DNA from: Psychrobacillus sp. INOP01
Lineage (GTDB): Bacteria; Bacillota; Bacilli; Bacillales_A; Planococcaceae
Assembly: GCF_018140925.1 (NCBI RefSeq)
Contig: NZ_CP073315.1
Location: forward strand, 2,480,001 to 2,544,000
Direction of reading: 5' to 3'
Length of the DNA stretch: 64,000 nt
Shown: positions 9,871 to 40,805 of the stretch, piece by piece
Position numbering within the stretch: the stretch's first letter is position 1
Layout: each line of letters starts with the position of its first letter
Notes under the pieces: model-generated
The model's input: the letters and a program-made list of their open reading frames with translations, nothing else
Databases searched by the model: none
What the model was told of the DNA's origin: nothing
Position numbers and translations under genes: made by a program

Positions 9871-9934
9871 AATATTTTTTCTGAATATTGGTAATCGTTG
9901 TTATATTTGGTATTAGTAATAAAGGGGAATTTTA

Positions 9935-11533: not shown

Positions 11534-11541
11534 TAGGTAAG

Positions 11542-11575
11542 GTGACTCCAGAACTATATATGGAGTCACTTTTTT
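11542..11575 (+). terminator. Terminator of the arginine-derivative cluster
   Basis: Perfect arms GTGACTCCA and TGGAGTCAC are followed by six T. Confidence 0.85.
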
Positions 11576-11585
11576 GTTTATAATC

Positions 11586-11647
11586 GACCCTGTGTAAGAA
11601 ACAAACATGAATGTTTAAACTTTCACGTTTGTGTCTTACACAGGGTC
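11586..11647. repeat. Palindromic repeat element, copy 2
   Basis: The left arm starts GACCCTGTGTAAGAAACAAA and the right arm ends TTACACAGGGTC. The two 26-nt arms match at nearly every base around a short loop (TGTTTAAAC). There is no T run, so it is not a plain terminator. It is the closest relative of the element at 5726-5805 and looks like a small non-autonomous (MITE/REP-type) repeat. Confidence 0.6.
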
Positions 11648-11664
11648 ATTTAATCTACTTTCTA

Positions 11665-11690
11665 AAAACTTTTTTCAAAGTTGTATGTCT
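11665..11690 (+). promoter_or_regulatory. Probable autoregulated ECF promoter
   Basis: AAAACT (11665-11670) and a GTC-containing -10 (TATGTCT, 11684-11690) are separated by 17 nt between AAC and GTC, the pattern of ECF sigma promoters in Bacillus. It lies directly before an ECF sigma gene. Confidence 0.5.
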
Positions 11691-11723
11691 AATAGATAGG
11701 GACAAATGAATTGGGGTGAAATC

Positions 11724-13614: not shown

Positions 13615-13671
13615 TAAAAAGAGTTTCTGAAAAACTTTTTTCAATGTTCCTGCGAGCAGCTATGGCAACAC

Positions 13672-13704
13672 AAAAAGAGTGGTCCCTTGGGATCACTCTT
13701 TTTG
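13672..13704. terminator. Terminator hairpin (repeat copy 2)
   Basis: Arms AAAAAGAGTGGTCCC and GGGATCACTCTTTTT repeat the hairpin at 5678-5712, including flanking GCGAGCAGCTATG and TTTGCAATTA. It can serve both the anti-sigma gene and the convergent purine phosphorylase gene. Confidence 0.7.
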
Positions 13705-13769
13705 TTTGCAATTAGTTTTTTCATTCAGGAAACATTACTTTTTTGCCGTCAGGGTCGGAACTATTTAAT

Positions 13770-14588
13770 TCAAATCTCTTTCAAAATCCCTTTGACTAAT
13801 TCAACAAATTTGACTCTAACTTTCCCGGCAACATCAATTACCTCATCATGGTTTAATGGTTGATCTAATATCCCACATGCCATATTCGTTAAGCAAGAAA
13901 TACCAAGTACTTTCATACCACCATGAGTAGCTACAATCGCTTCTGGCACTGTTGACATACCTACTGCGTCAGCTCCTAATGTACGAATCATACGGATTTC
14001 TGCTGGAGTTTCGTAAGTAGGTCCGCTCCACCAAGCATACACTCCCTGTTGCAATTGTATGTTTTGTTCGTTCGCTACTTTGGTTGCAATACTACGTAGC
14101 TCCTTGTTATATACTTCTGATAAATCAGGGAAACGAGTACCTAATTCGTCATTATTAGGTCCCATTAACGGATTGGTCCCGACAAGATTAATATGGTCCG
14201 TAATTAACATTAAATCTCCTGGATTAAAACTTGTATTCACGGCACCACAAGCATTTGTAATAATAACATTTTCTATACCAAGTGCTTTCATTACACGTAC
14301 TGGGAATGTTACTTCATCCAAAGTAAAACCTTCATAATAATGAAAGCGACCTTTCATCGCCGCCACTGTCTTTCCATTTAATTCTCCAATCACAAGTTCG
14401 TTCGCATGACCAATTGCTTCAGATTTTGCAAAGTGAGGAATTTCGCTATATGGAATTTTGACTGGGTTCTTAATTTCATCAGCAAGCGTACCTAAGCCTG
14501 AGCCTAGAATCATTCCGATCACAGGACGGTGGTCTGTCTTACTCATAATGAAATCTCTAGTTTCTAAAATATCTTCGATGTTGTGCAT
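13770..14588 (-). CDS. punA: Purine-nucleoside phosphorylase (PunA/PupG type)
   Basis: This enzyme phosphorolyses guanosine/inosine-type nucleosides to base and ribose-1-phosphate. The 272-residue, trimeric-type PNP shows the GMILGSGLGTLAD phosphate-binding loop (about 24-36), GRFHYYEG, the NACGAVN block and the purine-specifying CLTNMACG segment. ATG 14588 has AAGGGGG 7 nt upstream. It is monocistronic, between two bidirectional terminators. With the guanine deaminase gene at 60515-61870 it points to purine salvage, although the two are far apart. Confidence 0.95.
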   Translation of the reverse strand: MHNIEDILETRDFIMSKTDHRPVIGMILGSGLGTLADEIKNPVKIPYSEIPHFAKSEAIGHANELVIGELNGKTVAAMKGRFHYYEGFTLDEVTFPVRVMKALGIENVIITNACGAVNTSFNPGDLMLITDHINLVGTNPLMGPNNDELGTRFPDLSEVYNKELRSIATKVANEQNIQLQQGVYAWWSGPTYETPAEIRMIRTLGADAVGMSTVPEAIVATHGGMKVLGISCLTNMACGILDQPLNHDEVIDVAGKVRVKFVELVKGILKEI

Positions 14589-25694: not shown

Positions 25695-27410
25695 TTAAAC
25701 TAAAGATCCACCATTTTTTAAGTATTTTTCAATACCTTCAGCTGCACGATACGCAAGAGCTCCAACTGTGCCTGTAGGATTCATACCAGAATTATGCGGG
25801 AAAGCTGATGCACCAGGAACAAATACATTTTCACAATCCCACATTTGAAGGTAGTTGTTTAATGCGCTTGTTTTTGAATCAGCACCCATGATAACTCCGC
25901 CGGTGTTATGCGTTGTTTGATATTTTGTTGTATCCCAATCCTCTTGATCTCCTGGGGAATTAATGATGTCTGCTCCCATTTCTTCAAGAATCTTCGTTGT
26001 GATATCTCTAATATATTTCTGTTGATTTCTTTCATTGTCTTTATAGTTAAATGTCATACGTAATAATGGATCGCCGAATTGATCTTTGTACGTAGGGTCT
26101 AGGTCAATATAGTTTTCTTTGTTTGGCATAACTGAGCCTTGAGAACCTACTGATAAGCTGCGGTTCGTCCAATAAATAGATTCATCTTTAAACTCTTTAC
26201 CCCAAGTTGGTGTACCTTTAGGAACAGAATTATTGGAAATAGGGCGTTTCCCGTAATGGCCAAGTGCAATGTTACCACCGTGAATAAAATTCAGATCGGT
26301 ATGATCAAAATTGTCTCCATTAAAATCGTCTATTACTCCAGCTAGTGAACCTGTACCTGCATATAAATTAAATTCTTTCTCCTTAAAGAAACCTGTTGAA
26401 GCAGCTGACGTCATTTGGTAAGCATAGTTCTTTCCGATTACGCCAGTTCCCGACTCTGGATTATAAGGACTTCCAAGTTGAGAGTTTAATAGAATTCTAA
26501 TGTTATTAAGTGCATATGCTGATACAACAACAACGTCTGCTTCTTGGATATATTCTTCCCCTGTGCGTGTATCAACATATAAAACTCCAGTAGCTTTTCC
26601 GTTTGTATGGAGAACTTTACGGACAACGCAGTGAGTTCTTACTTCGAAATTACCCGTTTCTTTTGCCACTGGTAAAACAGTTACGACTGGAGACGCTTTT
26701 GCTCCATATTCACAGCCAAAACGCTCACAGAAACCGCAATATTGACATGCTGCTCTTGAAATTCCATCTGGATTTGTGTAGCTTTCAGAAAGAGTAGCTG
26801 CCGGTGCAATATAAGGATGATATCCTAATTTTTTTGAGGCTTCCTTAAACATTTTCATAGAAGGTGTCTCTTTTAGCGGAACTGTAGGGTATTTAACTTC
26901 AGGGACTTCTGGATGAGGATTAGTTTCACCAGAGATACCAGCCATTGCCTCAAACTTTTCAAAATATGGTACTAATTCGTTGTAAGTAATACCCCAGTCC
27001 TGAAGGGGCATATCCGCTGGAATTTTATCTTTTCCATAACGTTCTACAGTTTTTGAGTAAATTTCAAAATCATAAGGGAAAAATCGGTATGTTAAGCCGT
27101 TCCAGTGTTCTCCCGAACCACCAACACCATCTCCGATTAAGAATGATCCATGTTGACGATAAGGTAGAGCTCTCTTTGAACGATCATGACGTACTGTCAA
27201 CGTCTCTTTGGAAAGGTCTTGCATCATTTCATTTCTTTGTTGATATCTTAGTTCATCGTGAACCATTAAGTAATCTTCCGTCTTTCTTTCTTTGCCGCGT
27301 TCTAAACCTACCACTTTATATCCTTTTTTAGTAAGTTCTGCAGCAATGATTCCACCGGTCCAGCCCACACCTGCTAATACTATGTCTGTTTTTGGTAATT
27401 TTTTTGCCAT
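25695..27410 (-). CDS. GMC-family flavoprotein oxidoreductase (gluconate 2-dehydrogenase alpha type), copy 1
   Basis: The 571-residue FAD enzyme oxidises sugars, sugar acids or polyols. The dinucleotide-binding GVGWTGGIIAAELTKKG motif is at residues 15-31. GDGVGGSGEHWNG (about 93), a cysteine-rich CQYCGFCERFGCEYG segment (about 222-236; possible iron-sulphur or structural site) and the C-terminal GMC block with FPHNSGMNPTGTVGALAYR and catalytic His/Asn (about 535-553) are present. It has no signal peptide, so export would depend on the Tat signal of its partner encoded just upstream (20 nt). Its paralogue is at 39081-40805. The substrate is unknown. Confidence 0.93.
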   Translation of the reverse strand: MAKKLPKTDIVLAGVGWTGGIIAAELTKKGYKVVGLERGKERKTEDYLMVHDELRYQQRNEMMQDLSKETLTVRHDRSKRALPYRQHGSFLIGDGVGGSGEHWNGLTYRFFPYDFEIYSKTVERYGKDKIPADMPLQDWGITYNELVPYFEKFEAMAGISGETNPHPEVPEVKYPTVPLKETPSMKMFKEASKKLGYHPYIAPAATLSESYTNPDGISRAACQYCGFCERFGCEYGAKASPVVTVLPVAKETGNFEVRTHCVVRKVLHTNGKATGVLYVDTRTGEEYIQEADVVVVSAYALNNIRILLNSQLGSPYNPESGTGVIGKNYAYQMTSAASTGFFKEKEFNLYAGTGSLAGVIDDFNGDNFDHTDLNFIHGGNIALGHYGKRPISNNSVPKGTPTWGKEFKDESIYWTNRSLSVGSQGSVMPNKENYIDLDPTYKDQFGDPLLRMTFNYKDNERNQQKYIRDITTKILEEMGADIINSPGDQEDWDTTKYQTTHNTGGVIMGADSKTSALNNYLQMWDCENVFVPGASAFPHNSGMNPTGTVGALAYRAAEGIEKYLKNGGSLV

Positions 27411-27430
27411 GTCTCATAAGCTCCCTTCGA

Positions 27431-28204
27431 TTAATGTTTATGTTGTGAATTCAAGCTTGTTGGTTCAATTTTTACAAATTCATCTTTTTCAATAATATTT
27501 GCGTAGCTCATTTGATGACCTGGGAAGTTTTTCATCTTCCATCCTGCCATATCTTTATTTCCGCCGTATAAAGGATCTGCATAAGCACCTTCAATAGTTG
27601 CACTTTTTAGTAAGGCAAAAAAGTAAGTAGAAGTTACAGCACCGTTTAAAGTGACTTCGCCTTCTTCAAACGCTTGTAAAATAGACACTTGCTCTTCCTC
27701 TGTAATTTCAGAGAATTTTGCTTTATATTGTTTTGCTGCTTCTGAATTTAACGCTTCAATACCTAAATTGAAAATTTGTTGTCTGTTTAGATGTGTTTGA
27801 TGTCCAAACAGTGATGAAGCTTCTGCTGGATAAAAAGGTGCAGACATATATTCTTTTGAATTCAGCCCCCAACTTCCAGCAAGCTGATGATCGATATAAT
27901 ATGTAACGAGTAATTCTTTAGCCCCTGGTCCAACCTCTGATTTGGGGAAAATTTGTTCTGCTGCTGCATCAATCGTATCGAATTGTGCCTTGTCGAAATA
28001 CATTAGTGCTTGGTTGAAATTTACTGCAGTTGCTGTAGAGTGAACACCTGTTTCATGAGTTTGAGTTGTTGAGTCTTTACCTAGTAAAGAACCAAGAGCT
28101 CCACCTAGGACAACCCCACCTACTGTTAACCCAGAATTCTTGATAAAGGTACGTCTTGATGAACGTTTGTCTAAGTATGGAGCATTTTTTTCCTGTTCTG
28201 ACAT
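27431..28204 (-). CDS. Gluconate 2-dehydrogenase subunit 3 family protein with Tat signal, copy 1
   Basis: The 257-residue partner subunit has a twin-arginine signal: DKRSSRRTFIKNSGLTVGG then VVLGGALGSLL (about 13-43). The subunit-3 domain follows (YFDKAQFDTIDAAAEQIFP, GAKELLVTYYIDHQLAGSWG, YADPLYGGNKDMAGWKMKNF). In known enzymes this gamma subunit chaperones the flavoprotein and carries it through the Tat system. The operon order is small membrane protein, this gene, GMC subunit. tatA is encoded divergently about 850 nt away. Its paralogue at 38284-39057 has the same length. Confidence 0.92.
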   Translation of the reverse strand: MSEQEKNAPYLDKRSSRRTFIKNSGLTVGGVVLGGALGSLLGKDSTTQTHETGVHSTATAVNFNQALMYFDKAQFDTIDAAAEQIFPKSEVGPGAKELLVTYYIDHQLAGSWGLNSKEYMSAPFYPAEASSLFGHQTHLNRQQIFNLGIEALNSEAAKQYKAKFSEITEEEQVSILQAFEEGEVTLNGAVTSTYFFALLKSATIEGAYADPLYGGNKDMAGWKMKNFPGHQMSYANIIEKDEFVKIEPTSLNSQHKH

Positions 28205-28283
28205 AATATAACCTCCAGTGTAAATTAGTAAAAAATGGATGTAGTTGTTTATTTAGGTAAATAATAAACGAAAAATATGCTCA

Positions 28284-28541
28284 TTAATGAACAATGGTAT
28301 GCCAGTTGTAAACTAATGAGAATAAAATGGTATAAACCAATAAAGAAGCAATAAAATATATATGTTTTGTTCCTGTCCAGCAAAGAACGATGATAGCTAG
28401 TCCAATACCTGAACCTAATAATGCAAACCAAGGAAATTCATTGTTATAGAAAAAAAGACCTAGTGATAAGTCAGCTGCTATAAATAATGCAAAAAGAACT
28501 TGATTCAAGAGTTTTAATTCTTCTAAATTATATTGAGTCAC
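28284..28541 (-). CDS. Small three-helix membrane protein of the GMC oxidoreductase cassette, copy 1
   Basis: The 85-residue protein starts MTQYNLEELKLLNQ and has three hydrophobic helices (about 13-30, 36-55, 60-80), with FPWFALLGSGIGLAIIVLCW at the centre. It begins at GTG 28541 with AAAAGGAG upstream. A homologue of the same length opens the second cassette (37951-38208), so the association with the oxidoreductase pair is conserved. Known three-component enzymes have a multihaem cytochrome c subunit instead; none is encoded here. A role as membrane anchor or electron-transfer partner is an inference. I do not recognise a named family. Confidence 0.75.
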   Translation of the reverse strand: MTQYNLEELKLLNQVLFALFIAADLSLGLFFYNNEFPWFALLGSGIGLAIIVLCWTGTKHIYFIASLLVYTILFSLVYNWHTIVH

Positions 28542-28809
28542 TTTTGTTCTCCTTTTACTAATAAACTATTTAAAATGTTACTATACAAAACAACCGTTAC
28601 CCAGTTTACTCCTTTTTTTTCACATTTTCTACACATTTGTAATGAAAATAAAATATAATTTTATTCTGAAAATAACATTAAATTACTTTTTTCTACAAAT
28701 AAATGGGAAGGATATAGCGTGTTAGTGGTACAAAAAAACTAATTTCATCTCTCTATAGACTTGCTAAAGGACTAGGTACAAACAAAGTTATCTTAGAGGA
28801 GGAGACAGC

Positions 28810-28899
28810 ATGCCAAATATCGGCGTACTGGGTTTACAAATTTTTTTAAAGAAGCGAGAAAGTACATATTTGTTGTTCCTGTCCAGCAAAGAACTATAA
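28810..28899 (+). pseudogene. Truncated tatA fused to a fragment of the small-membrane-protein gene
   Basis: After GAGGAGG, the frame MPNIGVLGLQ repeats the first codons of tatA at 29049, including the leader. It diverges after nine codons. The stretch GTTCCTGTCCAGCAAAGAAC (about 28876-28895) then copies a segment inside the small membrane gene (about 28372-28391). The remaining 29-codon frame is a chimera from a duplication followed by an internal deletion. It is unlikely to make a functional product. Confidence 0.6.
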
Positions 28900-29048
28900 T
28901 AATTTTATATAACTATGTATTTACAAATTGGAACGAAGGAGTATAATGTGTAATTGTTACAAAACAACCAATACTTTTTGTAAGGAAACAACTATTAAGT
29001 AAAAGCCACATGATCATTATATATACTCAGTTATGAGGAGGAAACACT

Positions 29049-29252
29049 ATGCCAAATATCGGCGTACCCGGTTTAATAATTATTTTAATCATTGCATTAA
29101 TCGTATTCGGACCATCTAAATTACCTCAACTAGGTAAAGCAGTTGGACAAACATTAAAAGAATTTAAAAACTCAACAAAAGATATTGTTGACGAAGTAGC
29201 AGATGAATTTAGATTAGATGATAAAGAAACAGACGATAAAAAGAAAATTTAA
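29049..29252 (+). CDS. tatA: Twin-arginine translocase subunit TatA
   Basis: The 67-residue protein has one N-terminal transmembrane helix (about 6-21, [17 protein letters not shown]). The conserved [21 protein letters not shown] hinge and amphipathic helix are present (short form [10 protein letters not shown]), followed by an acidic/basic tail. It is the pore-forming Tat component. tatC is not in the window. It lies next to the operon whose subunit 3 carries a twin-arginine signal, which suggests a dedicated supply of TatA for that enzyme. It has a strong GAGGAGG site and a terminator 5 nt after the stop. Confidence 0.95.
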
Positions 29253-29255
29253 TAT

Positions 29256-29291
29256 AAAAAGCCAACTATTTTATAATAGTTGGCTTTTTTA
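29256..29291. terminator. Terminator after tatA
   Basis: Arms AAAAAGCCAACTATT and AATAGTTGGCTTTTT; bidirectional in form, shared with the convergent ABC ATPase gene. Confidence 0.88.
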
Positions 29292-29366
29292 TTTATGATC
29301 ATATACGGTGGCAGATTCAAAATTAGTTCTGAAATGTATTAGATGCGTTACCTCTATTTACCAACC

Positions 29367-31106
29367 CTAATTTTTCGGAATAGCTACCCAATGCTCTGGG
29401 TATACCTCCACTAACTCGGATTGACTTAATTGGTATTTGTCTATTTCTAAATTTTCTTCCATAAGGGACCGTTTTTTCTTTGCTTCAATTTTAGGGTCTG
29501 GAATTGGAATTGCAGCTAGTAATGACTTTGTATAAGGGTGCTGAGGATTAGAATATAACTCCTCACTTTCTGCAAGCTCTACAATTTTTCCTGAGTACAT
29601 AACTGCTACTCTATCACTAATATGCTTGACCATTGATAAGTCATGCGCAATAAATAAATAAGTAAGTCCCAAACGATGTTGGAGGTCCTCTAGCAACTCG
29701 ACGATTTGTGATTGTATAGAGACATCTAAAGCAGACAATGGTTCATCGCAAACGATAAAATCAGGTTCTACAGCAAGTGCACGAGCAATTCCAATTCTTT
29801 GACGTTGTCCACCAGAAAATTCATGTGGATAACGCATTGCATGTTCAGGTTTTAGACCTACCATAATGAGTAATTCTTCCACACGCTTTTTTCTTTCCTC
29901 ATTGCTTTTACTTAAACGATGTATATCTAGAGCTTGCCCGATTATATCCAGCACTTTAAATCGTGGATTTAATGAAGAATAGGGATCCTGAAAAATCATT
30001 TGCATATGCCGGCGCATTGTTTTCATTTCATTTTTACTAAGTCTATTTATCGCTAAACCTTGATATAATACGTCGCCGTCTGTTGGTTCATGAAGCCGCA
30101 ATATTGCTCTGCCAGTTGTAGACTTACCTGAACCGGATTCTCCTACTAGCCCTAACGTTTCACCAGGTTTTATGAAAAAGCTAATATCATCGACAGCTTT
30201 TAGTACATTTCCTTTTCCTGAATCGAAATGCTGCTTAAGAGAGCGTACATCCAGTAGAGGCTTTCCGTCTTCTGCTCCAATTGAACGGAGAGAAGGGCGT
30301 TTAGGTTTTTTTTTCTGATCTAAACGTGGGAGAGCTTTGAGTAGCTTTTTTGTATATTCATGTTGAGGGTTTTCAAAGATTTCTTCCGTTGTCCCAGTTT
30401 CGACAATTTCCCCATCTTTCATGACTGCTACTCGGTCACACATCCCTGCAACTACACCTAAATCATGTGTGATTAAAATAATAGATGTTCCAAAACGGGT
30501 CTGCATGTCTTTCATCAGGTTTAATATTTGTGCTTGAATCGTGACATCAAGTGCAGTTGTAGGCTCATCCGCAATCAGTAGAGTAGGGCGACATGCCAAT
30601 GCTATCGCTATCATGACCCTTTGACGCATTCCTCCAGAAAATTCATGGGGATACTGATTGAACCGTTCTTTACTATTTTTAATCCCTACTAGCTTAAGTA
30701 GTTCAAGCGCTTGTTTTTTTGCTTCCTTTTTGGATAACTTTTGGTGTTTGATTAAACTTTCAGCTATTTGTTTTCCAATTCGAATAGTAGGATTTAGAGA
30801 GGTCATTGGGTCTTGGAAGATCATACTAATATCTTGACCTCGGATACTTTCCATCTCTTTTTCTGACTTGTTTATAAGATTTTCACCGAGAAATTCAATC
30901 TCGCCGTTTTTCAACAATGAAGGAGGGGAAGGGAGAAGTCTCATGATGGAACGAGCAGTAACACTCTTTCCACTACCGGATTCTCCAACAATCCCAATAG
31001 TTTCTCCTTTTTTCACTTCAAAACTGACACCTCGCACAGCTTCAAATTCCTTGTCGCTGGTTAGAAACGAGATATGTAAATCTTTTACCTTTAGAACCGT
31101 CTCCAA
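29367..31106 (-). CDS. Fused double ATP-binding protein of an oligopeptide-type ABC transporter
   Basis: Two complete ABC ATPases of the DppD and DppF type are joined in 579 residues. The first (about 1-260) has [12 protein letters not shown]-type [13 protein letters not shown] and [12 protein letters not shown]. The second (about 275-545) has [33 protein letters not shown] and [12 protein letters not shown]. Both have oligopeptide-family C-terminal tails. It starts at TTG 31106 with AGGTG upstream. It is divergent from the permease genes, which share the 126-nt gap. It energises import through the permeases at 31233-34188. Confidence 0.94.
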
Positions 31107-31153
31107 CGTAAAACACCTACCTAATTATTTATGTGTAATTTAAACAAATATCA

Positions 31154-31182
31154 TTGACTAACTAAAATTTCCTATCTATACT
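31154..31182 (+). promoter_or_regulatory. Sigma-A promoter of the ABC permease operon
   Basis: TTGACT (31154-31159) and TATACT (31177-31182) are separated by 17 nt. Confidence 0.6.
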
Positions 31183-31232
31183 TTACTAAACCACTAGGAA
31201 TTATAATATATCAGAAAGGAGGTAAATAGTCG

Positions 31233-32678
31233 ATGGGATTGCATAAAGAACCATCGGTCAAGTTTGGTTTTTCTGATCATCTTTCATATGTTTTTGAAAA
31301 AATGATGAAGAGGACGTCATACAAATACTTGCTGTTAGTATTAGGATTCCCCTTACACCTTATTATTTTTTTCTTTTACCGATTAAAAAGAAAAAATGAT
31401 ACATATTTTACTATCCATAAAAAAATAAATGACTCTTTAAAAACAGCAGGGCTGAGAGAAAAATTATTAAGTGAATACAAGGAACAGTATGTTTGTAAAC
31501 TTGATTTCTTTCATGAAAAAGTGGATGAAAAGCAAATGAACATTGAAGTAGATAGGCTTGCACAAGAACGATACTCGAAAATACTTGTGGAAAAAATTGA
31601 GGATGAGTATGAACAGCAGGGCTTAGTAAAACTCAATTATATTTCATATTTTCGAAGTTTACTAAAAAAACCAGTGTTTTTGATTGTTTCATTTATCCCT
31701 GGAGTACTGATGTATATACTGCTGTTTTTGTTTAGTAATTTCTTTATTAAATTTATTTTCGAGCGCCTAGTTATGAGTGTTTTTGTTATTGTAGGTGTCT
31801 CAGTTTTAGTATTTACCATTTTGTATTTGTCACCTTTTGATCCTGCTGCGAATCTTTTGGGTGAAGCTGCAACGAAAGAGCAAATAGCCTCTTTTAATCA
31901 TACTTATGGTTTGGATCTGCCTTACTTGGCGCAATTATGGAATGCTGTAAAAGGGATTTTTACATTCGACTTAGGTGCTTCCTTTACTGGAAATGAAGAA
32001 GTAGCAGCAAGCATTGCTAATAAGTTTCCAATAACTTTAACAATTGCAATTTTTTCACTTTTAATGGCAATTGTTATTGCAATTCCAGTTGGAATCATTT
32101 CAGCTACTAGACAAAATACATTTTTAGATTATTCCTTTATGTTTATTGCATTAATTGGATTATCTATTCCTAATTTTTGGCAGGGCTTAATATTTATATT
32201 GAATTTCTCTATTAAAATGCAATGGTTACCTGCGACATATAATCCGCAGAATATGTTGTCGATTATTATGCCTGTAATAGTTTTAGGGACGGGGCTTACG
32301 GCTTCTGTTGCAAGAATGACTCGCTCCTCTATGCTAGAAATAATAAATGAAGATTATATTATTACGGCAAAGGCTAAAGGACTTAATGAAAGTCAAGTAT
32401 TATGGAAACATGCTATTGGTAACGCAATGATTCCTATTATTACAGTAATTGGCTTGTTGTTTGGGGATATGCTCGGGGGAGCAGCTGTTACTGAGAAAGT
32501 TTTCAATATTAGTGGTATAGGAAGCTATATTGTCGATAAGCAATTTATCCCTGACATTCCTGCCATTATGGGTGGGGTAATTTATATTGCTATAACAATT
32601 TCGTTAGTAAACGTGCTCATCGATATTTTGTATGCGTTTTTTGACCCTCGCATTCGATCTAAGATGAAGCAACTGTAA
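31233..32678 (+). CDS. Oligopeptide-type ABC permease, DppB family, with N-terminal extension
   Basis: The 481-residue permease is about 150 residues longer than usual DppB. The canonical part starts near residue 174 (FIFERLVMSVFVIVGVSVLV) and includes the family ISPFD-like LSPFDPAANLLG, ALIGLSIPNFWQGL and the EAA loop ARMTRSSMLEIINEDYIITAKAKG. The N-terminal extension has a hydrophobic segment (about 31-49), a charged soluble stretch (about 50-148) and another hydrophobic segment (about 151-171). An AAAGGAGG site precedes ATG 31233. The second permease starts 19 nt after its stop. Confidence 0.9.
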   Translation: MGLHKEPSVKFGFSDHLSYVFEKMMKRTSYKYLLLVLGFPLHLIIFFFYRLKRKNDTYFTIHKKINDSLKTAGLREKLLSEYKEQYVCKLDFFHEKVDEKQMNIEVDRLAQERYSKILVEKIEDEYEQQGLVKLNYISYFRSLLKKPVFLIVSFIPGVLMYILLFLFSNFFIKFIFERLVMSVFVIVGVSVLVFTILYLSPFDPAANLLGEAATKEQIASFNHTYGLDLPYLAQLWNAVKGIFTFDLGASFTGNEEVAASIANKFPITLTIAIFSLLMAIVIAIPVGIISATRQNTFLDYSFMFIALIGLSIPNFWQGLIFILNFSIKMQWLPATYNPQNMLSIIMPVIVLGTGLTASVARMTRSSMLEIINEDYIITAKAKGLNESQVLWKHAIGNAMIPIITVIGLLFGDMLGGAAVTEKVFNISGIGSYIVDKQFIPDIPAIMGGVIYIAITISLVNVLIDILYAFFDPRIRSKMKQL

Positions 32679-32697
32679 TTTAAAAGTAGGTGTAGAG

Positions 32698-34188
32698 GTG
32701 AATTCATTTAAAAAACATGCTTTGAAATTGTCTCAGGAGTATACACAAGCAAACTTTGCATGGGTTCTTTCTTTCGTAGTAAGCCTTGTTTTCCTCATCA
32801 ATAGTTTCAACTATAAAGAAGGAACGATTAATTCTCTTGTTTTTACTATATGTATAGTTTATGCCGTATTCACTATATATCAATTATTCCTAACCTGGAA
32901 AATTAAAAAAGATCTTTTGAAATACGGTGCAATACAACCTATTACAAGAAAGCTCGGATATATTCAACTTTTAAGTATATTGAGTGCGAATGTTTTTACA
33001 GCATCATTTGCTTTTAACTTGATTAAAAAGAAAAAAACACCAGAGTACACATTTGCAGTATATATGTTATTTACACAGCTTTTCGTAATTGCAGTCTCGG
33101 CTCTCAACCTATTTAAACCGTATGTTACAGATACTTTTTTGCCTGCAATGGGTACTCTGGTGGGAATCCTGATTTTTCAAATAGTAACTTTAATTCTTGT
33201 ATCGAAATATGTACAGGATGAATCTGCACCATCTTGGTTCCTTATCATTGCAGTATTATTAATTATTTCATCACTAACTGGTAATTTGTTTAATCTGTTA
33301 CTGGGTATTAGTTTAGTTGTTAAGGCTCGCAGCCACGATCGTTCTAGAATTATGAAGTGGAACACGATGTGGAATAAAATTACTCGGAATTCTACTGCGA
33401 TATTAGGAATGTTCTTCATCATACTTATGCTTTCTCTATCAGTTTGTAGCAAGTATACATTCGATTATGATATGGCGGTTGAAAATGACTATGGAAGTTT
33501 GTTACAAAAACCGAATTTAGAACATCCCTTTGGAACTGATGATTTTGGAAGGGACCTATTTTCTAGAATTATCTTTGGAGCAAGAATATCTCTTCTGGTA
33601 GGATTTGCTTCTACAATCATTCCCTTAATTATAGGAGGGTTCCTTGGAGCAATAGCGGGCTATTATACGAAACGTGCGGACAATATTATTATGCGATTAC
33701 TAGATATTTTGTATGCAATCCCAGGAATTTTGCTTGCTATAGCTATTATAGCTGCATTCGGAGCTAACACGATGAATCTAATATTAGCACTTAGTGTTGG
33801 CGCAATTCCAAGCTATGCACGGACGATGAGAGCAAACGTACTCATGGTATCGAACTATGAGTTTGTCGATTCTGCACGAGCGTTAGGAGCTTCTGACTCA
33901 TCTATTATTTTTAAGCAGATTGTACCGAATTCACTTGCGCCGATGATTGTTAAAGCGACTTTAACTATTGGTGGCGCTGTAATTGCAACGAGTAGCTTAA
34001 GTTTCCTTGGACTTGGAGTAGAACCACATATTCCAGAATGGGGAAATATTTTAAAAATAGGGAGTACTTATCTTGAATCGCATTCCTATCTAGCGATTAT
34101 ACCGGGGCTAGCAATTATAGGTCTTGTGTTATCTTTTAACTTTTTAGGAGATGGGTTACGAGATGCTTTTGATCCAAGGATGGATTAA
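32698..34188 (+). CDS. Oligopeptide-type ABC permease, DppC family, with multi-helix N-terminal extension
   Basis: The 496-residue permease carries about 200 extra residues, with five or six hydrophobic helices, before the canonical DppC part (from about 225). The core shows HPFGTDDFGRDLFSRIIFGA, LLDILYAIPGILLAIAI and the EAA loop RTMRANVLMVSNYEFVDSARALGA. It starts at GTG 32698. It lies between the DppB-type permease and the substrate-binding lipoprotein. The extension has no recognised domain and could add membrane helices to the transporter core. Confidence 0.88.
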   Translation: MNSFKKHALKLSQEYTQANFAWVLSFVVSLVFLINSFNYKEGTINSLVFTICIVYAVFTIYQLFLTWKIKKDLLKYGAIQPITRKLGYIQLLSILSANVFTASFAFNLIKKKKTPEYTFAVYMLFTQLFVIAVSALNLFKPYVTDTFLPAMGTLVGILIFQIVTLILVSKYVQDESAPSWFLIIAVLLIISSLTGNLFNLLLGISLVVKARSHDRSRIMKWNTMWNKITRNSTAILGMFFIILMLSLSVCSKYTFDYDMAVENDYGSLLQKPNLEHPFGTDDFGRDLFSRIIFGARISLLVGFASTIIPLIIGGFLGAIAGYYTKRADNIIMRLLDILYAIPGILLAIAIIAAFGANTMNLILALSVGAIPSYARTMRANVLMVSNYEFVDSARALGASDSSIIFKQIVPNSLAPMIVKATLTIGGAVIATSSLSFLGLGVEPHIPEWGNILKIGSTYLESHSYLAIIPGLAIIGLVLSFNFLGDGLRDAFDPRMD

Positions 34189-34214
34189 GTAAAAATATTG
34201 AGGAGGAAATGAAT

Positions 34215-36026
34215 ATGAAGAAAAGTTTGTTGGCAATCCTGTTTACTTTTGTTTTGATATTAGCTGGATGTGTAAATACGAAATCGGATGTTGCGGATAA
34301 AGGAAATGATAACAAGGATGTAAAAACAGATGATAGTGCAGTCACCATTGAACTGTTGGGTATGAGTACTGGGGAAGCGGATATGAATATTGTACGAGAC
34401 CAACTGATTAAAAATGGTTTTGATGTGAAGTTGAATATCCAACCAGATTACGGTAGCTTTACAGCTCAAAAAGATGCTGGTAACTATGATTTAGCATTAT
34501 CTAGCTGGACAACAGTTACAGGAAATCCAGATTATGCTGTACGTTCACTATTCAAATCAGATGGTGATAACAGTATTATGTCTGATGAAGAAGTGGATAA
34601 GTTAATAGAGCAAGCAAGTAAAGAAACGGAAGAAGATTTTACCGAGACATATAAAAAATTAGAACAGCGTCTTGTTCTTGATAAGGCTTATATTGCACCT
34701 CTTTATAATTCGTTTAAAGCACAAGGTGTAAACAAAGAAATTTTAAATGCAGATACTGTTAGACTTGCAAAGTCACGTGCAATTGCATGGGAATCTATTG
34801 ACTTTGCAGACACTTCAAAAAGAGCGACACAACCATTAATAATGCAACAAGCAATCGGTGCACTAACATCTTTAGATCCAATTAAAGGAAATGACGGTTC
34901 TATTAATACGTTAAATACAAATATGTATGTAAGACTTGTAAATTTAACAGATGACGATAAAGTGGTTTCAGATGGCTCATTATCACTTAACCATGCAATT
35001 GCCGAAGGAAATCAATCTTATTACTTCCTTCTTCGTGATGATATCAACTTTGCTGCAGTTAAAGATCAAAAGGCAGTTGATACTGGGGAACGCGTGGGTG
35101 CAGATGATGTTGTATTCTCATTAAACCGTGCTAAGGACGAAAAATCTGTGCCAGATCACCGCACATATAGCTTACACGAAAGTATGGAAGAAATCGAAGT
35201 AGTAACGGACCTAACTGAGCTTGATGTAAAACAATCTGGTAGCGATGTTACTGTAAAAGAAGCACTTGAGGATGGCTTAGATGCTAAAATCACAGAATTG
35301 GTAGAAGACAAAAATGTAGCAGATAATGCAGCGGGTAAATATCAAGTTGTTAAAATTACAACAGTAAATCCATTCCCACAAGTACTAAATTATTTAGCTC
35401 ACCAATCAGCAGGAATAGTATCTAAGAAACAAGTAGAGAGCATTAATACGTACGATGTGGAAACATTCGATGTAAATACAGATATTCCTTATGGAGATCA
35501 AAACACAGTTACAGAAGGTGACAAATATAACAATACGTTATATGCAAGCGGACCTTACATCTTGTCACATAAAAATGATTACGAAGCCATATTCTTAAAA
35601 AATCCAGCGTATATGACAGGAACGGAAAATGAAGCTAAAATCTCTAATGTAACTGTACGTTTCATACAAGATCCGGATAGCGCACTTTCAGCATTACGTA
35701 ATGGAGAAATCCATATATTCAACGGAGTGCCAGAAACAAAATATGACTTAGTAGAGGGCGATAGTAAATTAACCCTTCAAGAAAGTGACAGTAACGCTGT
35801 ATCATATCTATTGTTCAATACTCAAAATCGTGAAGTAGCTGATAGCGAAGATTTAAGAAAAGCTATTCTGTATTCGATTAACCAAGATGAAATTTTGAAT
35901 TACTATCAAGGAAACAAAAATAAAGCAGTTTCTACAGTAAGTCCACTTGTTGATACTGGAAATGAGTTAGTTGCAGATCAAGCGAAAGTAAAAGAATTCT
36001 TAGAAGCTTATAATGCAAGTAAATAA
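34215..36026 (+). CDS. Substrate-binding lipoprotein of the ABC transporter, apparently circularly permuted
   Basis: This SBP_bac_5-like lipoprotein of about 603 residues has a signal peptide with lipobox LAGC (Cys about 19). Domain order is unusual. Residues about 37-190 resemble the C-terminal lobe of the family (VTIELLGM, YDLALSSWTTVTGNPDY, SDEEVDKLIEQASKET, YIAPLY). Residues from about 205 resemble the N-terminal start (IGALTSLDPIKG, YYFLLRDDINF, GADDVVFSLNRA). The protein then ends at the RKAILYSINQDEI and AKVKEFLEAYNASK block that normally leads into the C-terminal lobe. ATG 34215 has AGGAGG 8 nt upstream; the ATG at 34209 is too close. The ligand is probably a peptide or similar solute. 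Confidence 0.88.
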   Translation: MKKSLLAILFTFVLILAGCVNTKSDVADKGNDNKDVKTDDSAVTIELLGMSTGEADMNIVRDQLIKNGFDVKLNIQPDYGSFTAQKDAGNYDLALSSWTTVTGNPDYAVRSLFKSDGDNSIMSDEEVDKLIEQASKETEEDFTETYKKLEQRLVLDKAYIAPLYNSFKAQGVNKEILNADTVRLAKSRAIAWESIDFADTSKRATQPLIMQQAIGALTSLDPIKGNDGSINTLNTNMYVRLVNLTDDDKVVSDGSLSLNHAIAEGNQSYYFLLRDDINFAAVKDQKAVDTGERVGADDVVFSLNRAKDEKSVPDHRTYSLHESMEEIEVVTDLTELDVKQSGSDVTVKEALEDGLDAKITELVEDKNVADNAAGKYQVVKITTVNPFPQVLNYLAHQSAGIVSKKQVESINTYDVETFDVNTDIPYGDQNTVTEGDKYNNTLYASGPYILSHKNDYEAIFLKNPAYMTGTENEAKISNVTVRFIQDPDSALSALRNGEIHIFNGVPETKYDLVEGDSKLTLQESDSNAVSYLLFNTQNREVADSEDLRKAILYSINQDEILNYYQGNKNKAVSTVSPLVDTGNELVADQAKVKEFLEAYNASK

Positions 36027-36036
36027 TAATTATGGG

Positions 36037-36087
36037 GCGCCGGTTTCTATACAAATTTCGATTTGTATTAGAAGCTGGTGTTTTTTT
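36037..36087 (+). terminator. Terminator of the ABC transporter operon
   Basis: A long stem with ATACAAAT/ATTTGTAT at the tip around TTCG and GCGCCGGTTTCT/AGAAGCTGGTG at the base is followed by seven T. Confidence 0.85.
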
Positions 36088-36336
36088 ATATAAAAGTAAT
36101 AAGGTTTCATGCGGTGAACGCAATTCTCCTTTGCAGCGTACTTCCAGGTTTGGAGCTAGCGTAGCGATGCAGAAACCGTTGGAGATTTCTAAGGTCGTTG
36201 TCTGAGCTTCCTCATTTCATTAAAAAAAGTTCTTCTTACACTATATCAAGGTTTTAAATTACCCAGAAAAAAGCTTTCCTACTACTTAAAGCAAAGCTCC
36301 CGCTTCAAGGAGTTTTGTCTAATAAATTTTGTAATG
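36088..36336. other. Intergenic stretch upstream of the GntR gene
   Basis: GC-richer scraps (AGCGTACTTCCAGG, GGAGCTAGCGTAGCG) look like eroded sequence from a former gene or repeat; no intact frame is seen. Confidence 0.35.
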
Positions 36337-36361
36337 AATATTTCATTTTTGATGAAATATT
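36337..36361. promoter_or_regulatory. Perfect inverted repeat upstream of the GntR gene
   Basis: AATATTTCAT and ATGAAATATT are perfect 10-nt arms around TTTTG. It is a candidate operator for autoregulation. Confidence 0.45.
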
Positions 36362-36475
36362 TCGCAATATCATTTTGTCTTCTTTCATCAAAGGATGTAG
36401 TATTCTTTAAAAAAATAATTTGTAAAGTATAATAAGTGAGTATTTAATTTTAAAATAGCTTCAGGGGGTTAAGAT

Positions 36476-37114
36476 ATGGTTTCAAACAAAATGAATGCAC
36501 AAAAATTGGCTTATGAATACATTCGAGAATCTATGCTTAATGGAACTTATAAAGGAGGAATGAAGCTCGTAGAAGAACGTCTTGCTGATGAGATTGGTGT
36601 TAGTCGTACACCAATTCGTGAAGCGATTAAAAGACTAGAGCAAGAAGGTTTAATTAAGAATAAGCATATTTATAATCCTACAGCACAGGATTTGATATAC
36701 ATATATGAGATACGCATAGTACTAGAAAGTTTTGCAGCAAATAGAGCAGCGAAAAATATGACAGCAGAAAAGGTTAAAGAACTTGAGAATACCATAGAGA
36801 AATCTCGTAATTCGCTTTTGGAAGGACAGTCAAAAAATATATACAATGCAAACCAACGCTTTCATGAATTAATTATAAATGAATGCCAAAACCCAATAAT
36901 GATTGAGAGATTAGAACAAGCTCAGACAATTTTCTATTTATTTAGCCTAAGGCTCGATATATATAGTCGTCCACATATAATAGATGAGCATGAAGAAATT
37001 TACAAAGCCATTAAGAATAAAAATGAACAACTTGCCGGCGAACTAATGTCTAAACATTTATATAAAGACATGAATTTTACTCTGGAGATTATCGGCAGGA
37101 ATGGACAGTTTTAG
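36476..37114 (+). CDS. GntR-family (FCD/FadR-type) transcriptional regulator
   Basis: The 212-residue regulator has an N-terminal winged helix (about 10-70; LADEIGVSRTPIREAIKRLEQEGLI) and an all-helical FCD ligand-binding domain (about 78-205; IRIVLESFAANRAA, FHELIINECQNP, DEHEEIYKAI with metal-type Asp/His positions). A GGGGG site precedes the ATG. It lies between the ABC operon and the second GMC cassette, whose promoter region holds two palindromes of the type bound by this class. Control of that cassette is inferred. FCD ligands are usually organic acids or sugar acids, which suits a sugar-acid dehydrogenase. Confidence 0.92.
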   Translation: MVSNKMNAQKLAYEYIRESMLNGTYKGGMKLVEERLADEIGVSRTPIREAIKRLEQEGLIKNKHIYNPTAQDLIYIYEIRIVLESFAANRAAKNMTAEKVKELENTIEKSRNSLLEGQSKNIYNANQRFHELIINECQNPIMIERLEQAQTIFYLFSLRLDIYSRPHIIDEHEEIYKAIKNKNEQLAGELMSKHLYKDMNFTLEIIGRNGQF

Positions 37115-37382
37115 ATTATAAATAATTCTTTAAATTCTGTTAGGTACACCAAGATGATCAAATTACATTTCCAAAAACGAATTTATCCGCAATTCGAAAA
37201 TTTATAATTTCCTTAACATATATAAAGCACTAATTCATCCAATAAGCAATTGAATTAGTGCTAAAATAACTTATCTTTTGTATATATTTACTTGCAAAAT
37301 CTTCGAAATTATTTACATCTAATAATTAATCAATCGAGTGGTCAGCAAATGCAAATTTAGGATTTTAAAGAGAAGTTATGCC

Positions 37383-37813
37383 TTAAAATCTATCATTGTA
37401 ACTAATATTTGCAGTACTTTCACGATAATTCCAATAAATATTTCTTTCAGTAAAGCTTAACTCTCCGCGAACGGCATAAAATGTTTTTGCATCTCTTATA
37501 CATGTATTTTCCATTAGGAGGTGTTTCTTCTTTATAGTACCCCTGAAGTGTTTTTTCGAGCATCCTTTACAACCTCTTTTAAACCTTAATATAATATCCA
37601 ATTTCCTTTTAAAGTTTTGTTCAAGAAAATGGCCAATTCAATAAAAAAAATGCAGAACCATATTTTGCAAATGCTGCTTTTAATAGAATAACTAATATAT
37701 AGTCTCTCTCCATCATTAAGAAAAACTAAATCTTTTTCCGCTAATAATATTAGACATTTCTTATAACAATCAAGTTGGTGGATAGGAAATAGGCAATGAT
37801 TATATATCCTCAT
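37383..37813 (-). pseudogene. Degenerate gene remnant, possibly comK-like
   Basis: Two overlapping minus-strand frames (37813-37586 and 37601-37383) could be one gene broken by a frameshift near 37590. The first has NHCLFPIHQLDCYKK and the second FRGTIKKKHLL, then FYAVRGELSFTERNIYWNYR. The spacing of the hydrophobic, CysSer and Trp-Asn-Tyr positions is reminiscent of ComK. The match is weak, the region is very AT-rich and neither frame has a good ribosome binding site. It may instead be random AT-rich sequence. Confidence 0.25.
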
Positions 37814-37871
37814 ATGCTAAGTTTTTAATATGTACAAACAACAAAGGAATGTAGTAGAATAATAGATGTTA

Positions 37872-37908
37872 TTTTTGTATGCAAAAATCATCTTTTTGTA
37901 TACAAAAA
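37872..37908. promoter_or_regulatory. Two phased GntR-type palindromes upstream of cassette 2
   Basis: TTTTTGTATGCAAAAA (37872-37887) and TTTTTGTATACAAAAA (37893-37908, perfect) are 21 bp apart start to start. TTGTATACAA is the form commonly bound by FCD-type GntR regulators. They lie 43 nt before the first gene of the cassette. Confidence 0.6.
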
Positions 37909-37950
37909 TTATTTAAAATCTTTTAATTGCATAAAAAAAGGAGAATAAGT

Positions 37951-38208
37951 ATGACCCAATACAATATAGAAGAATTGAGGATGCTCAATCAGGTGCTACT
38001 GGCCCTTTTTATCGTAGCTGATTTTGCACTTTTACTCTTTTTTAATAATAGTCCATTCCCTTGGTTTGCCCTATTAGGTTCTGGAATTGGTTTATCCATC
38101 ATTGTTCTTTGTTGGACAGGAAGAAAACACGCTATTTTTATAGCTTCATTACTTGTTTTTTCAGTTTTTCATACAATTATTTATAATTGGAGCTCTATTG
38201 TGCATTAA
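37951..38208 (+). CDS. Small three-helix membrane protein of the GMC oxidoreductase cassette, copy 2
   Basis: The 85-residue protein (start MTQYNIEELRMLNQVLLALF) has three hydrophobic helices and FPWFALLGSGIGLSIIVLCW. It is clearly homologous to the 28284-28541 protein and of identical length. ATG 37951 has AAAGGAG 9 nt upstream; an in-frame ATG at 37927 lies before the site. It is the first gene of the operon, preceded by paired GntR-type palindromes. Membrane anchoring or electron transfer to the respiratory chain is inferred. Confidence 0.78.
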   Translation: MTQYNIEELRMLNQVLLALFIVADFALLLFFNNSPFPWFALLGSGIGLSIIVLCWTGRKHAIFIASLLVFSVFHTIIYNWSSIVH

Positions 38209-38283
38209 AAGCAGAAAAAATTTTGCACATTTTCTATTTAACTAGTTAAATAGAAAATTACTAAATTTATGGGAGGTTTAATA

Positions 38284-39057
38284 ATGTCAGAACAAGAAAA
38301 GAAAGAGTCCGTTTTAGATAAACGTTCGTCTAGACGTACGTTCATTAAAAACTCTGGTTTGACAGTAGGTGGAGTTGTTTTAGGTGGAGCTTTAGGAAGT
38401 CTTCTAATAAAAGATGATAAATCAACAACACACAATACTGATACTCAGAATCATGCAAAAACGCCTATTGCTAATCCAAATATAGCTCTAATGTTCTTCA
38501 CACCAAATCAATATCAAATTACTCAAGCAGCAGTGGAACGTATTTTCCCTGAAGATGCAAATGGCCCTGGTGCTAAAGAACTTAATGCTGCTGTTTATAT
38601 AGATCACCAATTGGCTGGTCCATGGGGTTCTAACGTAAAAGATTACCGTTTAGGTGCATTTTATAAAGCGGAAGAAAACCAAGGTCCACAAACTAAACTT
38701 CTTCGTAAAGATTTATTCCTAGCTGGTTTAGACAGCTTAAACAAATATAGTAACGATCAATATAAAGCTGACTTTAAAGAGTTAGAAGCTACTCAACAAG
38801 ATGAAGTTCTACTTGCTTTTAGTGAAGATAAAGTTGAATTATACGGAAAAGTTTCCTCTTCTCAATTTTTCAGTTTATTACGCACCTTAACTATTGAGGG
38901 TGTATATGCAGACCCAATGTATGGTGGTAATAATGAAATGGTTGGCTGGAGTATGCGTAAGTATCCAGGATCTCGTATGCAATACGTGGCTGAAATACAA
39001 GATGAAAAGTTTATCGAACTTGAACCACAAAGTTTAAATTCTCATATGGGACATTAA
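38284..39057 (+). CDS. Gluconate 2-dehydrogenase subunit 3 family protein with Tat signal, copy 2
   Basis: The protein has 257 residues, the same as its paralogue. Its twin-arginine signal SSRRTFIKNSGLTVGG is identical in the core. The subunit-3 domain contains YQITQAAVERIFPEDANG, YIDHQLAGPWG and YADPMYGGNNEMVGWSMRK. ATG 38284 has GGGAGG 7 nt upstream. The gene sits 75 nt after the small membrane gene and 23 nt before the flavoprotein gene. It probably escorts the flavoprotein across the membrane through Tat. There is no tatA next to this copy. Confidence 0.92.
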   Translation: MSEQEKKESVLDKRSSRRTFIKNSGLTVGGVVLGGALGSLLIKDDKSTTHNTDTQNHAKTPIANPNIALMFFTPNQYQITQAAVERIFPEDANGPGAKELNAAVYIDHQLAGPWGSNVKDYRLGAFYKAEENQGPQTKLLRKDLFLAGLDSLNKYSNDQYKADFKELEATQQDEVLLAFSEDKVELYGKVSSSQFFSLLRTLTIEGVYADPMYGGNNEMVGWSMRKYPGSRMQYVAEIQDEKFIELEPQSLNSHMGH

Positions 39058-39080
39058 TAATAGAAAGGACTGACATATAA

Positions 39081-40805
39081 ATGGTTACAAAATTACCTAA
39101 AGTACCTGTCGTAGTAGTAGGGATGGGTTGGGCTGGTGGAATCGTCTCAGCTGAACTAACAAAAGCAGGAATAAGTGTTGTTGGATTAGAACGTGGTAAA
39201 GACCGGACAACAGCTGATTATGCAATGGGACATGATGAACTTCGTTATCAACATCGTCAAGAATTAATGCAAGATCTTTCTAAGGAAACTATTACTTATA
39301 GAAATACAGTATCAGGTAAAGCTTTACCGATGCGTCACTACGGTACATTCATCGTAGGAGACGGAGTTGGTGGAGCAGGAAGTCACTGGAATGGACAAAC
39401 TTATCGTTTCTTACCTTATGACTTTGAAATTCGTACAAAAACAATTGAGCGTTACGGAATCGAAAAAATTCCTGCTTGGATGGAAGGTCTTAACGACTGG
39501 GGGATAACTTATGATGAGATGGAACCTTACTATGATACATTCGAAAAAATGGCTGGGATCTCAGGTGAAACAGTAGAACTTTGGGGGAAACGTACTAATC
39601 CATATCCAACGCCACCTCTAGTCAAAACACAATTAATGAAAGAATTCGAAAAAGCAGCTACAAGCTTTGGATACAAGCCTTTCGTTATTCCTGCAGCTAA
39701 CCTTTCTGAATCATATACAAATCCAGACGGCATCTCTCGAGGAGCATGTCAATACTGTGCATACTGTGAAAACTTTGGATGTGAATATGGAGCGAAAGGT
39801 GACCCTGCTGTAACAGTTATTCCGGTTGCAAAACAAACAGGTAAGCTAGACCTTCGTACACATTCTAATGTTTTAGAATTAACTAAAAGTGGTGGTAAAG
39901 CAGACGGAGTTATTTATGTAGATATGCTAACTGGAGAAAAGTTTGAACAACCTGCAGATGTAGTTGTAGTGGCAAGTTATGTATTCAACAATTCTCGTTT
40001 ACTTCTAAACTCTGGTATTGGTACTCCATATGATCCAAAAACAGGTAAAGGGACAATCGGTAAAAACTATTGTTACCAAGTAACTGCTGGTGGTTCACAA
40101 TTATTCTTCGAGGATAGAGAGTTTAACCTATACGGTGGCGCAGGTGCATTAGGTATTGAAATCGCTGAATATATGGGTGATAACTTTGACCATGCTGAAG
40201 TAGACTTCTTACATGGTGCTGGTATTCGTTCAACACAATACGGCGACCGTCCGATTGCAGTAAACCGTGTACCTGCAGGAACACCAGCCTGGGGTGCTGA
40301 GTTCAAAGAGAAATCTATTAAATATGCGAATTCAAACTTCCCAGTTAAAACGCAAGGTGCTTCTTTACCACATAAAGAAAATTACCTAGATCTTGACCCA
40401 GAATTTAAAGACGAATTTGGATATCCACTATTACGCATGACATATGAATATACAGATAATGACCGTGCGATGGGTAAATACATGTCTGCTATCACGCGTA
40501 AATTTGCTGAAGAAATTGGCGCAGATATTATTGATACAAATGAAGTGCAAGCTCCGTTTAACGTAAACAAAGATGGAAACACTCATAACACAGGTGGAGT
40601 AATAATGGGAACAGACCCTGAGAAATCTGCTCTAAACACCTACCTACAAATGTGGGAAGCTGAAAACGTATTTGTTTTAGGTGCATCTGCATTCCCACAT
40701 AATAGTTGCTTTAATCCAACTGGTACACTGGGTGCACTTTCTTATCGTGCTGCAGAGGGTATTCAGAAATATTTAAAAGAAGGCGGATTACTAGTTAAAG
40801 CATAA
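39081..40805 (+). CDS. GMC-family flavoprotein oxidoreductase (gluconate 2-dehydrogenase alpha type), copy 2
   Basis: The 574-residue FAD enzyme is paralogous to the 25695-27410 product. It has GMGWAGGIVSAELTKAG (about 14-30), GDGVGGAGSHWNGQ (about 92), the cysteine cluster CQYCAYCENFGCEYG (about 223-237) and the C-terminal FPHNSCFNPTGTLGALSYR block with the catalytic His-Asn positions. It has no signal peptide of its own. The two copies share much of their sequence but differ across the substrate-side segments, so they may act on different sugars or sugar acids. A large terminator follows. Confidence 0.93.
   Translation: MVTKLPKVPVVVVGMGWAGGIVSAELTKAGISVVGLERGKDRTTADYAMGHDELRYQHRQELMQDLSKETITYRNTVSGKALPMRHYGTFIVGDGVGGAGSHWNGQTYRFLPYDFEIRTKTIERYGIEKIPAWMEGLNDWGITYDEMEPYYDTFEKMAGISGETVELWGKRTNPYPTPPLVKTQLMKEFEKAATSFGYKPFVIPAANLSESYTNPDGISRGACQYCAYCENFGCEYGAKGDPAVTVIPVAKQTGKLDLRTHSNVLELTKSGGKADGVIYVDMLTGEKFEQPADVVVVASYVFNNSRLLLNSGIGTPYDPKTGKGTIGKNYCYQVTAGGSQLFFEDREFNLYGGAGALGIEIAEYMGDNFDHAEVDFLHGAGIRSTQYGDRPIAVNRVPAGTPAWGAEFKEKSIKYANSNFPVKTQGASLPHKENYLDLDPEFKDEFGYPLLRMTYEYTDNDRAMGKYMSAITRKFAEEIGADIIDTNEVQAPFNVNKDGNTHNTGGVIMGTDPEKSALNTYLQMWEAENVFVLGASAFPHNSCFNPTGTLGALSYRAAEGIQKYLKEGGLLVKA

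Follow-up and report, generated by a model that had tools for sequence, protein, structure and literature searches.

ORF 34215-36026 of the window (the whole stretch of 64,000 nucleotides analysed here) was confirmed by sequence comparison to encode a cluster C (SBP_bac_5) substrate-binding lipoprotein (SBP) in which the segments are circularly permuted. This window SBP is a real, little-noticed variant of a common protein family, and relatives in many Bacillales have the same arrangement. The permuted cluster C clade spans several Bacillales families, very probably including the staphylococcal glutathione-binding lipoprotein GisD.

Segment order of the lipoprotein

The features of the gene, all on the + strand, are as follows.

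34215..36026, +, circularly permuted SBP_bac_5 lipoprotein (603 aa from 34215; 605 aa from the alternative start 34209)
34215..34271, +, signal peptide and lipobox LAGC, the lipidated Cys being residue 21 (sequence)
34335..34805, +, segment that ends ordinary SBPs (later lobe III and end of lobe I), residues 43-199 (phmmer, rotation scan)
34806..34832, +, short linker between the two old termini, residues 200-208 (junction alignment)
34833..36023, +, segment found at the start of ordinary SBPs (lobes I and II and the first part of lobe III), residues 209-605 (PF00496, phmmer, rotation scan)

Lobe names were assigned from what we take to be the lobe boundaries of OppA. Judged by the spacing to the ribosome-binding site GAGGAGG (34200-34206), the ATG at 34215, which lies 8 nt past it, is a better start than the ATG at 34209, which lies 2 nt past it; residues of the window SBP are counted from 34209 throughout. 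The ORF, lipobox and motifs given in the preliminary description are all present, in the order it claimed, with the C-terminal family motifs directly after the lipobox and the N-terminal motifs later. The first block comprises lipobox C21 (invariant in a 38-row alignment of permuted SBPs), a strand and helix at 45-68, YDLALSSW at 93-100, DEEVDKLIEQA at 126-136 and YIAPLY at 161-166, and the second comprises SLDPIKG at 221-227, YYFLLRDD at 271-278 and GADDVVFSLNRA at 297-308.

Family membership was evident from the match to PF00496 (SBP_bac_5; 132.3 bits, cut-off 32.4). In native order this match fell into two stretches, the better of which (132.3 bits) paired residues 265-598 with positions 13-273 of the 368-position profile. 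When the protein was reordered as residues 204-605 followed by 43-203, a single stretch of 142.7 bits covered profile positions 13-367 of 368. Searches with phmmer crossed in the same manner: query residues 58-166 matched 378-490 of 5u4o (i-Evalue 6.4e-9), 42-171 matched 356-488 of OppA (1b05), and 444-599 matched 207-364 of a DppA (5f1q). A profile of 38 permuted relatives gave the same crossed matching. Reordering turned the two stretches on 5u4o into one, and raised the score against GsiB (1uqw) from 36 to 46 bits.

In a rotation scan with five-residue steps, the scoring profile was made of 29 ordinary SBPs taken from three genomes. For the window SBP, the best single-domain score rose from 76.2 bits in native order to 142.1 bits when cut at the old ends; cuts as far as about residue 410 gave this score too, since the best domain extends no further. 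A Staphylococcus-like relative (L073) rose from 85.2 to 133.9 bits, also cut at the old ends. Three of four ordinary controls, all four being members of the scoring profile themselves, peaked at their natural start, and the fourth (L195) tied with it. Together with the single-stretch Pfam match after reordering, the scan indicates circular permutation, and with its segment order permuted the window SBP is a permuted variant of SBP_bac_5 and not a canonical member.

A truncated SBP fused to an unrelated N-terminal domain, with no permutation, would fit the best native PF00496 stretch, which spans profile positions 13-273 only. Such a fusion is very improbable: the N-terminal block (about 42-178) matches the C-terminal half of SBPs, and reordering yields a single Pfam match of almost full length as well as the highest rotation score. 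The view that simple truncation or fusion could not produce this order was thus borne out by the reordered match and the rotation score, and, as far as sequence can do so, the phmmer crossing, the reordered Pfam match and the rotation scan rule out both. The two findings named beforehand as contrary to permutation were not obtained: residues 37-190 are not an unrelated domain, since 43-178 are homologous to the SBP_bac_5 C-terminal half, and no ordinary C-terminal lobe follows as a second copy in the window SBP.

Where the old ends meet, about nine residues connect WESIDF (194-199, old C terminus) with PLIMQQ (209-214, old N terminus), and the alignment around the junction contained no leftover signal peptide or lipobox. 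The preliminary description had placed the beginning of the old N-terminal part near residue 205; that part is indeed present, but begins near 209, with SLDPIKG at 221. It had also claimed that the protein ends exactly where the C-terminal lobe would start, which does not hold, as the protein runs part-way into that lobe and stops after helix 591-604, the helix that precedes the GYPxGF loop in ordinary SBPs. With the OppA boundaries adopted here, the break is inside lobe III, that is, inside the C-terminal lobe and not at its edge. At the new N terminus the lipobox is followed by about 20 low-confidence residues and then strand 45-52. An AlphaFold2 model built with 38 sequences reached pLDDT 85.0 and pTM 0.81; its best two Foldseek matches were DppA and GsiB, with 424 and 411 aligned columns. 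Among the matches listed, TM was at most 0.53, as expected from an order-dependent aligner applied to a permuted fold, yet such low values are no proof of permutation.

Distribution and ancestry of the permuted form

Colinear permuted relatives were found in 82/200 genomes of the family, 107/261 of the order and 35/398 of the class, one of the last being a 219-residue remnant. The remnant (L078, genome G583, 8144-8830) retains approximately the last 219 residues of a permuted SBP, and neither PermB nor PermC, the permeases of the cassette described below, was matched within 16 kb. In the phylum samples, where scoring in the search for distant relatives covered no more than the three best first-look candidates of each genome, permuted relatives occurred in Bacilli only (4/398 and 3/348 genomes). 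A named collection of 300 relatives, of which 80 were kept, included Psychrobacillus, Sporosarcina, Bacillus and allies, Paenibacillus, Brevibacillus and others; all 80 kept loci are colinear with the window SBP to at least residue 598, L121 only from residue 58 owing to an early stop. Homologues having both the same order and the same enlarged permeases are thus widespread in family, order and class genomes and among the named loci.

The spread of the gene also bears on whether an assembly error or a pseudogene could account for the unusual order. Nothing at the window gene points to this, the broken copies lying elsewhere (L159, and L121 with its early stop), and against it stand the same order in 82 of the 200 family genomes, the colinearity of all 80 kept loci and a dN/dS of about 0.06, so that it can be regarded as extremely improbable. 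Overall dN/dS was 0.052-0.065 against six close copies, the most distant of which, with a dS of 2.1, is near saturation. An assembly artefact is accordingly ruled out by the spread across family and order genomes and named loci, together with dN/dS.

When 38 reordered and 29 ordinary SBPs were placed in one tree, the permuted proteins formed one side of a branch with 100/100 support and a length of 3.05, and a single origin is therefore the simplest reading; the tree did not single out a nearest ordinary relative. The window genome carries one full-length permuted SBP and, in addition, four ordinary SBP_bac_5 genes. Among genomes of the same genus the permuted gene was present in 9/19, the window genome included, and this patchiness suggests repeated loss or transfer. 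One whole cassette (L160, NZ_OK052578.1) lies on a 362-kb Metabacillus plasmid typed as non-mobilizable, so the cassette is not confined to chromosomes. A record titled Arthrobacter (L097, NZ_JADHDX010000017.1) contains a Bacillales-type cassette with an SBP 76% identical to that of the window, and may be misnamed.

The transport cassette and its putative promoter

The gene lies at the end of a cassette with the following further features.

29367..31106, -, fused double ATP-binding subunit, 579 aa, divergently transcribed (ORF list)
31154..31182, +, promoter-like -35 TTGACT / 17 / -10 TATACT before the permease-SBP operon (consensus scan, 10/12)
31177..31204, +, conserved TATACTATACCGATCGGAATAATGCAATT-like element overlapping the -10, CymR-operator-like (15/19 specified consensus positions)
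31233..32678, +, PermB, OppB/DppB-type permease with about 170 extra N-terminal residues (PF00528 at 283-475, PF19300 at 172-272)
32698..34188, +, PermC, OppC/DppC-type permease with about 215 extra N-terminal residues (PF00528 at 313-495; OppC_N at 221-272 below cut-off)

The oversized permeases reported beside the SBP were verified, both PermB and PermC being enlarged at the N terminus. No Pfam match was found before residue 172 of PermB or residue 221 of PermC, and hydropathy indicated about two extra membrane segments in PermB and about six in PermC. The order divergent ATPase, PermB, PermC, SBP was found in 78/80 named loci, including one (L136) with both permeases split over two frames; in the two departing loci, the ATPase is split over two frames (L092) or the cassette is cut by the contig end (L129). 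The PermB extension aligned from query residue 40 or earlier in 79/80 named loci and the PermC extension in 76/80, the exceptions being L115, L123 and L158, with later starts, and L129, which is cut. A match to the first 215 residues of PermC was obtained in 26/299 class genomes (residues 107-208 only in G291), and in 26/26 the extension adjoins a permuted SBP. This association is the one observation in favour of the earlier suggestion that permutation could alter how the SBP docks to the permeases. The closest permease models, Opp2B, Opp4C, nickel, GsiC and GsiD, all scored below cut-off.

A different arrangement was seen in L076 (genome G615, family f22, that of a Brevibacillus thermoruber contig; 6895-13804), where PermB, PermC, two ATPases and the SBP follow on the same strand, two separate ATPases taking the place of the divergent fused one; this arrangement is possibly either older or rebuilt. 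Flanking genes of the 80 named loci gave no functional hint, the commonest neighbour cluster being near 12/80 only. In the window, a GntR/FCD regulator (36476-37114, +) lies directly downstream of the SBP. Two paralogous Tat-type proteins, labelled by eye as gluconate dehydrogenase subunit 3-like, flank the cassette, and the second is followed by an ORF which, also by eye, resembles a GMC-type oxidoreductase (27431-28204, -, and 38269-40805, +).

The promoter score was not significant alone, since the consensus scan of the region found 22 promoters against 21.7 in shuffles; the -10 is conserved across relatives. The TATACTATACCGATCGGAATAATGCAATT-like element reached at least 18/29 matches in 78/84 promoters (1680 shuffles: mean 15.0, maximum 20) and exceeded the shuffle maximum of 20 in 66/84, counts to be read with the consensus having been taken from some of the same promoters, with the promoters being related, and with L077 and L150 being the same contig stretch. 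The 19-position CymR operator consensus used here reportedly goes back to Even et al. in 2006. It was matched at 15/19 or better by 66/84 related promoters, against 77/1680 shuffles and 4/84 for the mirrored consensus; the window promoter scored 15/19 and L073 12/19. A B. subtilis cysK site contains AGTCGGAAATT (PMC11487621).

Genome-wide, CymR scans were not selective, with 226 and 217 sites compared with 159 and 188 when the consensus was mirrored, and with 47 and 41 against 33 and 35 in a second pair of scans. Near the eight best CymR-like sites of the window genome were four sulfur-related-looking genes (YeiH-type, SfnB-like, MetE-like and cystine-SBP-like), all below NCBIfam cut-offs, the neighbours scored (nine and ten proteins, six/eight loci) having been picked by eye. 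An Rfam scan of 26000-40000 gave no match.

Cargo, proposed mechanism and known systems

The glutathione import system of S. aureus is encoded by gisABCD-ggt (PMC10355420, for layout and role). In three Staphylococcus-like loci (L073-L075, family f9) the cassette occurs at about 40-50% identity and is followed by gamma-glutamyltranspeptidase. The SBP of L073 is colinear with the window SBP over 587 residues (40.5%, E 6e-157), the next best match being an ordinary SBP at E 1e-9, and its other subunits are 43-50% identical to those of the window (ATPase 49.5%). Over its longest pieces, the S. aureus-labelled L159 shares 73-78% identity with L073; the piece containing the SBP, equivalent to residues 1-226 of the window SBP, runs across the permutation junction. 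In the record itself (NZ_CP077929.1, a 'plasmid') the Gis locus is present as broken and inverted copies, which looks like an assembly artefact. Because cassette plus ggt in the Staphylococcus-like loci equals the published gisABCD-ggt layout, GisD is very probably permuted, with L073-L075 and L159 standing in for the named gisD gene. The string 'permut' does not occur in the main text of PMC10355420 or PMC12510641.

Outside the Staphylococcus-like genomes, genome context failed as support for glutathione. No ggt was found in the window genome, or in up to 8 kb of sequence on each side of the 80 named loci. In a sample of 78 genomes, with carrier status taken from the family, order, class and phylum searches, family genomes that carry the permuted SBP had ggt no more often (22/32) than non-carriers (25/32); ggt was present in 7/8 carriers and 3/3 non-carriers of other families and in 3/3 Staphylococcus-like genomes.

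The ligand amino group is bound by an Asp, D408 in DppA and D432 in GSSG-bound GbpA (PMC3295651). This position is Val103 in 38/38 permuted rows, evidence against glutathione being bound as it is in GbpA. It is Ser in GsiB; GsiB too being without the Asp, glutathione could still be the ligand. A likely role is that of an importer of a cysteine-containing small peptide, perhaps CymR-controlled. The chance that the cargo is a cysteine-containing or gamma-glutamyl peptide is about even, and that it is glutathione itself distinctly lower.

The same permuted importer might instead carry an ordinary di- or oligopeptide, a nickel chelate or another cluster C ligand in Bacillales, glutathione having come later in Staphylococcus together with ggt. 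The lack of ggt in the flanks of the 80 named loci (up to 8 kb per side) and of co-occurrence in the tested genomes, the identity of only about 41% to the Staphylococcus-like form, and the sub-threshold scores of Opp2B, Opp4C, nickel, GsiC and GsiD would agree with such a cargo. The amine-binding Asp of dipeptide binders is, however, missing in all 38 rows, and most relatives have the CymR-like element at the operon promoter; an ordinary cargo is thus given a little less than an even chance.

Returning to a cysteine-containing or gamma-glutamyl cargo, we infer that the gene product serves a Gis-type ABC importer as its lipid-anchored substrate-binding subunit. Permutation would have happened once, in an ancestral cluster C (SBP_bac_5) protein, most simply via tandem duplication and trimming, of which no intermediate was seen, with the old ends fused by about nine residues and the new ends in a loop inside lobe III. 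Venus flytrap closure around the ligand would be retained, with the lipid tether, formerly on lobe I, moved to lobe III. The cargo, probably a small peptide with cysteine or a gamma-glutamyl group (glutathione, for example), would be passed to PermB and PermC, whose membrane extensions have so far been seen only in this cassette, and import, powered by the divergent fused ATPase, may occur under cysteine shortage through CymR-type control. As a whole, this explanation of a once-permuted SBP of a Gis-type importer, with its probable cargo and CymR-type control, is held with good confidence. An unlikely extension would make GisD and its Bacillales orthologues the first described permuted cluster C subclass, in which the permutation co-evolved with the permease extensions, and the tether on lobe III lets the extended permeases hold the SBP in a fixed pose, with a docking cycle unlike that of Dpp/Opp.

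If GisD is permuted, this would help to explain why ordinary alignment shows it as unlike GsiB, from which it is stated to differ in sequence (PMC10355420). The permutation is also a warning that transfer of ligand contacts and lobe numbering by homology goes wrong across the clade. Since the cassette nearly always has permeases with extra membrane segments, it also offers a natural experiment on the position of the lipid tether in ABC import.

The window locus has the Gis-type layout of a divergent fused ATPase, two permeases extended at the N terminus by additional membrane segments and a lipoprotein SBP, which is in the same permuted order in L073-L075 and, in part, L159. It differs from GisABCD-Ggt in being about 41% identical to the Staphylococcus-like form, in a PermC of 496 aa compared with 390 aa, and in that ggt was not found in or near the Bacillales cassette; as ggt is missing from the window genome and the 80 named loci, the system is not classed as GisABCD-Ggt. 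DppA, GsiB and GbpA are of the same SBP_bac_5 family and among the top structure and sequence matches of the window SBP, but have the canonical order, and DppA and GbpA carry the amine-binding Asp where the window SBP has Val103.

No permuted cluster C protein was recognised in open-licence titles and abstracts, among the matches listed, and none of 29 solved sequences matching the permuted profile did so over its whole length. Within the same titles and abstracts, and the matches listed, the only natural permuted SBP recognised was TpMglB-2 (Tp0684) of Treponema, a circularly permuted glucose-binding lipoprotein described as 'Type Ic / Cluster Bc', for which the authors proposed that tethering may have favoured permutation (PMC4990184). 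Both are naturally permuted, tethered substrate-binding lipoproteins with the permuted part within one lobe. TpMglB-2, however, is a cluster B sugar binder of another fold class in which the N lobe is permuted, whereas the window SBP, by its PF00496 match and its structural matches to DppA and GsiB, does not have the Type I / cluster B sugar-binding fold and belongs to cluster C, with the break in lobe III.
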